Shown here piece by piece: positions 34,664-35,211 of a stretch of DNA of 64,000 nucleotides. The translations under genes and the position numbers were made by a program. A model generated the notes under the pieces. That model saw only the letters and a list, made by a program, of their open reading frames with translations, was not told the DNA's origin and searched no databases. Each line of letters opens with the position of its first letter. Position 1 is the stretch's first letter. Origin of the DNA: Herbiconiux sp. (GTDB taxonomy: Bacteria > Actinomycetota > Actinomycetes > Actinomycetales > Microbacteriaceae); contig NZ_SCVE01000006.1 of assembly GCF_004297105.1 (NCBI RefSeq), forward strand, positions 124,001-188,000, given 5' to 3'.

Positions 34664-34684
34664 CAACAGCGTGTGACAACGGCC
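34664..34684. repeat. 21-bp inverted repeat, copy on the 3' side of ssrA
   Basis: Exact reverse complement of 35091-35111. It lies two bases beyond the CCA end of tmRNA. A small hairpin (GCCCC/GGGGC, 34652-34664) follows towards the MarR gene and may end the tmRNA transcript. Confidence 0.9.
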
Positions 34685-34686
34685 GG

Positions 34687-35084
34687 TGGTGGAGATGGGG
34701 GGAATTGAACCCCCGTCCATCGCTGTGATTCTGCGCCTTCTACGGGCGTAGCCTGTTGAGACGTTCTCATCGGCTCCGACCTTTGCTACAGGCATCTAGG
34801 TCGACGAGCCCAGCCACAGTTCAAGTCCCGCGTGCCCCTGAGGCACGAACACGCAGCAATCTCTCTAGATAATGCCGGAACCCGGGTAGAGAGCATTCCC
34901 GGACCGACAGTTGCTATTTAGCTAGAAGGAAGACCTACGCTGCAAGAGCGAAGGTGGCCTTCTTGGCCGCAACAGTGCTGTTTGAATTGGCACTTATATT
35001 TTGCGGAGGGCGTTAACGAGATAACCCCGCATCCTCGACCCGCTTCTCGCAGTTTCGCAGGCGATGTCGAAACCGATCATCCCC
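34687..35084 (-). ncRNA. ssrA: tmRNA (transfer-messenger RNA)
   Basis: One-piece tmRNA of about 398 bases that rescues stalled ribosomes together with SmpB. The 5' end GGGGATGATC pairs with the 3' part CATCTCC before the encoded ACCA; the T arm GGTTCAATTC precedes it. The reading frame for the tag lies at 34938-34991 and encodes ANSNSTVAAKKATFALAA, then TAG at 34935-34937; the FALAA end is the normal degradation signal. The 5' -10 box may be TATGCT at 35161-35156. A perfect 21-bp inverted repeat brackets the gene. smpB is about 2.3 kb away. Confidence 0.96.
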
Positions 35085-35090
35085 GTGCTG

Positions 35091-35111
35091 GGCCGTTGTC
35101 ACACGCTGTTG
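35091..35111. repeat. 21-bp inverted repeat, copy on the 5' side of ssrA
   Basis: Exact reverse complement of 34664-34684, ending six bases before the tmRNA 5' end. In the primary transcript the two copies would pair and close a stalk on which the tmRNA acceptor stem sits. Confidence 0.9.
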
Positions 35112-35211
35112 AGTTACCAATCGCCGACTCGGACCGAAGCCCGAGGCAGCCCTCTAGCATACGACAGATCGCGGGCCTCGCGTACCGGCGCGATGGAATA
35201 TCGTGGGGAGC

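Follow-up and report, generated by a model that had tools for sequence, protein, structure and literature searches.

The window, the whole 64-kb stretch of Herbiconiux DNA analysed here, carries on its minus strand an ssrA gene encoding tmRNA, the RNA that rescues stuck ribosomes (Table 1). Comparison of the full window against Rfam yielded this tmRNA and one tRNA, and nothing else. Both ARAGORN and Rfam describe an ordinary one-piece ssrA gene with an encoded CCA. The tag peptide, ANSNSTVAAKKATFALAA, comprises 18 residues and is similar in other members of the genus, while many members of the Microbacteriaceae have a 12-residue tag of the ANSKRTDFALAA type in place of this long form. The gene is bracketed by two arms of 21 nt each, spaced by 406 nt and 100 % complementary (21/21 pairs), and the perfect 21-bp inverted repeat reported in an earlier note on this DNA is thus present. 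The distances of two and six bases from the mature ends given in that note match the gene limits of ARAGORN and Rfam, which put the 3' arm 2 nt beyond the encoded CCA and leave a 6-nt gap between the mature 5' end and its arm. The strand was left unstated there; as ssrA is on the minus strand, the arm with the higher coordinates is the leader arm and that with the lower coordinates the trailer arm. Only the tmRNA gene fits between them, with no transposase or recombinase gene, and a mobile element bounded by inverted repeats was rejected on these grounds. In the fold predicted for the precursor, the two arms close the structure (-229.4 kcal/mol; z -5.5 against 100 shuffles). The earlier proposal that the arms extend the acceptor stem stands in part: the arms pair, with compensatory changes in relatives, but they do not simply lengthen that stem. 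An internal loop of 6 nt on each side, with the CCA inside it, separates the arm helix from the acceptor stem here, and in 58/89 relatives with an assigned register the 5' arm is followed by a spacer of at least 15 nt before the mature part starts. Forty of these 58 inserts fold at -4 kcal/mol or better, often as a predicted hairpin.

Table 1. Features of the ssrA locus, with positions counted from the first nucleotide of the window
Feature	Position	Strand	Evidence
ssrA (tmRNA), mature part with encoded CCA	34687..35084	-	ARAGORN; Rfam RF00023, 159.9 bits
Leader (5') arm of the leader-trailer helix, CAACAGCGTGTGACAACGGCC	35091..35111	-	Complementarity; co-variation in relatives
Trailer (3') arm, GGCCGTTGTCACACGCTGTTG	34664..34684	-	Complementarity; co-variation in relatives
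boxC-like element AACTCAACAG; its last six bases form the outer end of the leader arm	35106..35115	-	14-mer in own 16S leader; near-invariance in relatives
14-mer AACTCAACAGCGTG, common to the ssrA leader and the own 16S leader	35102-35115
Possible boxA-like stretch ATTGGTAAC, weak in the window	35113..35121	-	Sequence comparison only
Leader hairpin CUCGGGCUUCGGUCCGAG	35128..35145	-	Predicted leader fold
-10-like element TATGCT	35156..35161	-	TAnnnT then GARGGCY, 16/16 genus members

When exact inverted repeats of at least 15 bp with arms 300-600 nt apart were sought in the 64-kb window, the ssrA pair was the sole case, the next-best repeats of this spacing measuring 14 bp, at two other places. 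The best Watson-Crick segment of the ssrA flanks scores 21, whereas 2120 shuffled flank pairs gave a mean of 6.9, a 99 % point of 10.5 and a maximum of 12.5. The flanks of control genes in the own genome score at background level (rnpB, 8; SRP RNA, 7.5; the tRNA-Leu of the window, 7). The opinion voiced earlier that chance pairing is very unlikely is borne out by this score and by the absence of a second repeat of such length and spacing.

Flank complementarity was evaluated in a set of 106 loci of the Microbacteriaceae (family f1 in our numbering; order Micrococcales), composed of 37 same-family genomes, drawn from this genome and 59 relatives, and 69 usable loci of 80 named ones, the other eleven having no gene call (8) or short flanks (3). 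Two genomes seem to be present twice among the family loci (L045/L135 and L067/L127), and one locus of the set, L105, is a wrong ARAGORN call which passes in the larger named scan once length-filtered. The helix lies above the 99 % shuffle point (10.5) in 97/106 loci and above the maximum of the 2120 shuffles (12.5) in 85/106. All 16 genomes of the genus of the window pass the 99 % cut, and the complementary flanks which the earlier note proposed to look for in close relatives are thus found there. The query of the named scan was a pattern inside the tmRNA body, and the scan was therefore blind to the stalk. Among the matches listed (at least 120 loci), 106 were measurable and 98 exceeded the 99 % shuffle threshold, while 14/120 were unmeasurable for want of a gene call (10) or through a short flank (4). 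Seven of the eight failing loci show, by eye, the same stalk in a shorter, wobbled or interrupted form, and the eighth, L186, is ambiguous. The passing loci span at least 23 genera among the matches listed, including Microbacterium, Leifsonia, Curtobacterium, Clavibacter, Rathayibacter, Agromyces, Cryobacterium and Frigoribacterium. Loci L172-L211 entered the named scan only and stand outside the co-variation counts given below. Some matches were irregular: an ssrA start typical of the Microbacteriaceae was observed on Acidobacteria and Microthrixaceae metagenome-bin contigs (L156 and L159), probably through wrong binning, and two genomes of the order search (G069 and G132) have two ssrA matches each, the second of G069 without ARAGORN confirmation.

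The leader arm has a further property, which the earlier note missed: by comparison of sequences, the 5' arm begins with a boxC-like element of the rRNA leader. The own 16S leader, CCTTGAGAACTCAACAGCGTGCACAATG, lies approximately 200 nt before the 16S gene and has a 14-mer in common with the ssrA leader. A 16S model found no 16S on the own assembly; the own 16S leaders were located by pattern, one of them preceding a partial 16S that the end of the locus truncates. The ACTCAACAGNG pattern alone is not rare, with four hits in the own genome against two for the reversed control, and its match at ssrA has weight because of its position and the common 14-mer. In relatives, the outer leader arm is nearly always CMACAG after ACTC or a close variant, and the box is nearly invariant, also in loci whose trailer lacks its complement. 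The 16S gene was sought in twelve relatives and was readable in ten, and in 10/10 of the latter the box element has a pairing partner in the 16S-23S spacer, as do ACTCAACAGCGTGCA and TGCACGCTGTTGGGT for one another. We take this element to be boxC on the basis of its sequence, and the RNA in the NusA-RNA structure of Beuth et al. (2005) is reportedly GAACUCAAUAG. The naming also draws on the available part of PMC6614801, where the helix between the 16S boxC leader and the 16S-23S spacer is a known RNase III site. The analogy to rRNA processing stalks drawn in the earlier note is closer than was claimed, because the 5' arm holds this boxC-like sequence. An occurrence of the ACTCAACAGCG element away from both rRNA and ssrA was observed at L069:1501-1511 (G000:C9:316560-316570), approximately 20 nt after a tRNA gene.

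For the analysis of co-variation, the register of each genome was defined by its best Watson-Crick segment, a choice which favours true pairs, and a shuffle null with the same choice stays well below. The alignment of box and arms left out 17/106 loci, six under the helix cut and eleven without the exact box pattern (ten of which show a variant), and the co-variation set left out 27/89 with a core below 14 and, once duplicates were removed, comprised 46 of the 49 long-type helices and 12 of the 13 short-type ones. Watson-Crick pairs make up 95.5 % of the 14-pair core in the 46 unique long-type helices, the length class of the window; permuting the trailer arms among loci (n = 1000) gives 67.7 % on average and 73.3 % at most. 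Two or more Watson-Crick types occur in 13/14 core columns, and parsimony on a FastTree tree of the tmRNA bodies (49 loci) counts at least 86 double changes from one Watson-Crick pair to another over the 14 columns. Sliding the partner by 1-3 columns reduces the Watson-Crick fraction to 6-34 %. The 12 unique short-core helices give a modest signal (94.6 % versus a permuted mean of 84.9 % and maximum of 92.3 %). The box part of the arm is constant, while the rest co-varies. The compensatory changes suggested earlier as a check on the ssrA flanks are thus plentiful, the arms of relatives pairing with many double changes. An excess of G-U over A-C mismatches would be expected if RNA pairing is selected; the counts are 36 versus 24 over the 106 loci (p = 0.155, not significant), 20 versus 11 in the core (p = 0.15) and 13 versus 40 in the box part. 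RNA rather than DNA is taken as the level of selection because of the position of the arms, the -10-like element and the likeness to rRNA, and not because of this test.

A wider survey covered 167 genomes with usable flanks, a part of the matching genomes of the order and class that was hand-picked to spread over families, with four loci skipped. A segment score of at least 10 was reached in 38/44 genomes of the Microbacteriaceae, 5/8 of family f18, 2/5 of f12, 1/2 of f5 and 1/7 of f6, and in 0/101 genomes from a further 37 families in the class. Single hits in this survey are weak, since mismatched flanks from different families reach a score of 10 at the 99 % point, and the f6 match (L229) looks like a terminator overlap. 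The case of f18 is more convincing because its remaining three members score 8-9; the segment is at the same place in those inspected. In f12 (L020, L216 and L259) ssrA lies between flanks that form another, shorter helix (9-10 bp; GTGAGTGCAR paired to YTGCACTCAC), perhaps of independent origin. Outside f1, f5, f12 and f18, an AACTSMA-like element, a motif picked post hoc, lies at most 18 nt from the mature 5' end in 56/108 genomes, which suggests that the box element may be older and the stalk a later addition between box and gene.

Upstream of the arm, a possible boxA-like stretch reads TTTGACAAC or TTTGGAAAC in relatives of the genus, and the ATTGGTAAC of the window is a weak version of it; in rRNA-type leaders boxA is the element to which NusB/NusE bind. 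The whole leader, which includes the predicted hairpin, folds no better than shuffles (z -0.78). The TAnnnT and GARGGCY combination is situated 32-82 nt upstream of the box in 16/16 genus members. No sigma-70 consensus pair was found upstream of ssrA, and the promoter is for this reason a predicted rather than a mapped one. Transcription would be expected to start near 35150, and the placement of the candidate -10 element upstream of the 5' arm predicts one transcript with both arms, rather than the start within that arm which the earlier note gave as a refutation. Intrinsic terminators, defined as a G+C-rich short-loop hairpin with a T run, were absent from the minus strand between 34500 and 35400. 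A role of the arms themselves as an intrinsic terminator was rejected on this ground and on account of the 406 nt between them.

The RNase III gene, rnc, is present in the own genome. Five genomes of the Microbacteriaceae fall below the cut and are stalk-less (L041, L049, L058, L036 and L022; four of 0.9-1.5 Mb and one of 2.8 Mb), and rnc is kept in 5/5 of these, while the stalk-bearing genome G026 (82 % complete) gave no rnc hit. In the small set of ten genomes compared, the stalk therefore does not track rnc. Two published observations give indirect support to a processing stalk. In Streptomyces venezuelae, ssrA is elevated when rnc is mutated, with its ends unmapped, in the accessible part of PMC12096830; ssrA is not recovered in the RNase III induction experiments reported there, which speaks against it. 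Staggered cuts have been mapped in the 16S and 23S stalks of another actinobacterium, Propionibacterium acnes; in the sections available from that study, tmRNA is named as an example of a transcription start and among the sRNAs found, and no stalk cuts are given for it (PMC3848588). A stalk need not mean cutting, since the 16S helix of E. coli is needed even without RNase III, according to the portion seen of PMC10250234.

The arms co-vary and one of them carries a boxC-like element common to the 16S leader, and we therefore favour, at a probability of roughly 60 %, an rRNA-type leader-trailer helix, that is, a processing stalk on pre-tmRNA, in which cutting by RNase III is likely. The strongest competing explanation is a helix that does form but whose chief role is not to be cut. 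This helix would join the ends of the approximately 400-nt RNA co-transcriptionally, for folding of the tRNA-like domain, and shield the 3' end, with RNase P and further nucleases left to do the processing. The conservation and co-variation of the arms also fit this explanation, as do the lack of tracking between stalk and rnc in the ten genomes and the 16S helix of E. coli, which is critical whether or not RNase III acts, in what is available of PMC10250234. The 21-bp duplex must, however, still be removed or passed, and RNase III is known to cut the corresponding helix of 16S in the part consulted of PMC6614801; a folding role without cutting appears rather unlikely.

The arms could also act as a transcription switch, in which the box holds NusA and keeps the polymerase Rho-resistant until pairing of the trailer displaces NusA and ends transcription just after ssrA. 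While the leader arm has the boxC-like element itself at its outer end and the minus strand lacks an intrinsic terminator between 34500 and 35400, the co-variation falls mostly in the inner core, outside the box, and such a switch is improbable. An inverted repeat acting at the DNA level, as the ends of a mobile element or as a protein site, would account for the look of a perfect repeat around the gene. It would also agree with the known use of ssrA as an integration site of genomic islands (PMC11915505, as far as available) and with the G-U to A-C ratio of 36 versus 24 (p = 0.155). Nothing but ssrA is located between the arms, however, and the arms vary among species yet co-vary at the same place, with an rRNA leader element within the 5' arm, all of which makes a DNA-level role very improbable. 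Chance pairing of the flanks, with a score of 21 against a shuffle maximum of 12.5 (n = 2120), is already refuted by the co-variation and its compensatory changes and is scarcely credible.

For the favoured leader-trailer helix, we infer the RNase III cut, the binding of Nus factors and the order of the steps by analogy. Transcription of ssrA would begin at a promoter approximately 65 nt upstream of the mature 5' end, and the nascent leader, like that of 16S, would expose a boxA/boxC-like element. By this analogy, the leader element may recruit NusA and its partners, and the Nus-bound leader would shield the untranslated transcript from Rho and stay near the polymerase. As the trailer emerges, it would pair with the boxC-containing leader arm, and the resulting 21-bp stalk would close the precursor. 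RNase III, the enzyme that cuts the matching 16S stalk, would most likely make a staggered cut in this duplex, after which RNase P would finish the 5' end of the tmRNA and 3' exonucleases would trim the few nucleotides left before the CCA.

In the usual account, tmRNA matures in the manner of a tRNA, through RNase P and 3' trimming. Relative to the standard one-piece tmRNA gene, the gene form and the encoded CCA are the same here and the leader-trailer helix is added. Standard, intron and permuted forms of the tmRNA gene are named in the accessible portion of PMC11915505, in which such flanks are unmentioned. The open-access literature, as far as its texts were available, yielded no description of a stalk or boxC element around tmRNA, which is weak evidence of absence given that subscription papers fall mostly outside it. 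As with the pre-16S leader-trailer helix, the arms are complementary flanks of a stable RNA and the leader strand opens with the same boxC-like sequence. In the 16S helix of the Enterobacteriaceae, boxC is nearly invariant in the 5' strand while the helix co-varies (PMC10250234, from the part available), and the same combination of constant box and co-varying helix is seen at ssrA. Unlike the 16S arms, which are approximately 160-220 nt away, the ssrA arms are close to the mature ends, at 2 nt and, in the window, 6 nt; they bracket tmRNA and not rRNA, and the sequence beyond the common 14-mer differs. Another small stable RNA, the 4.5S (SRP) RNA of Bacillus subtilis, is linked to maturation by RNase III in the accessible text of PMC3386247. 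It differs in that an rRNA boxC element is not mentioned for it in that text, and the SRP RNA of the own genome has no flank helix. The same text reports the recovery of tmRNA with an inactive Staphylococcus aureus RNase III, by which maturation is not implied.

It is possible, and put forward here tentatively, that the tmRNA of the Microbacteriaceae is an rRNA mimic, in which an rRNA antitermination element in the leader would give Nus-escorted transcription and the boxC strand would close an RNase III stalk with the trailer. If this reading is true, the supply of the ribosome-rescue RNA would be tied to the machinery that makes ribosomes. The ssrA stalk would also be a second, much smaller natural substrate on which the roles of boxC and the leader-trailer helix can be viewed apart from ribosome assembly, and related families with a box-like element at ssrA and no stalk offer a natural contrast. 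Considering the conserved, co-varying helix with its 16S boxC-like sequence, most of the Microbacteriaceae may route their tmRNA via the rRNA pathway.
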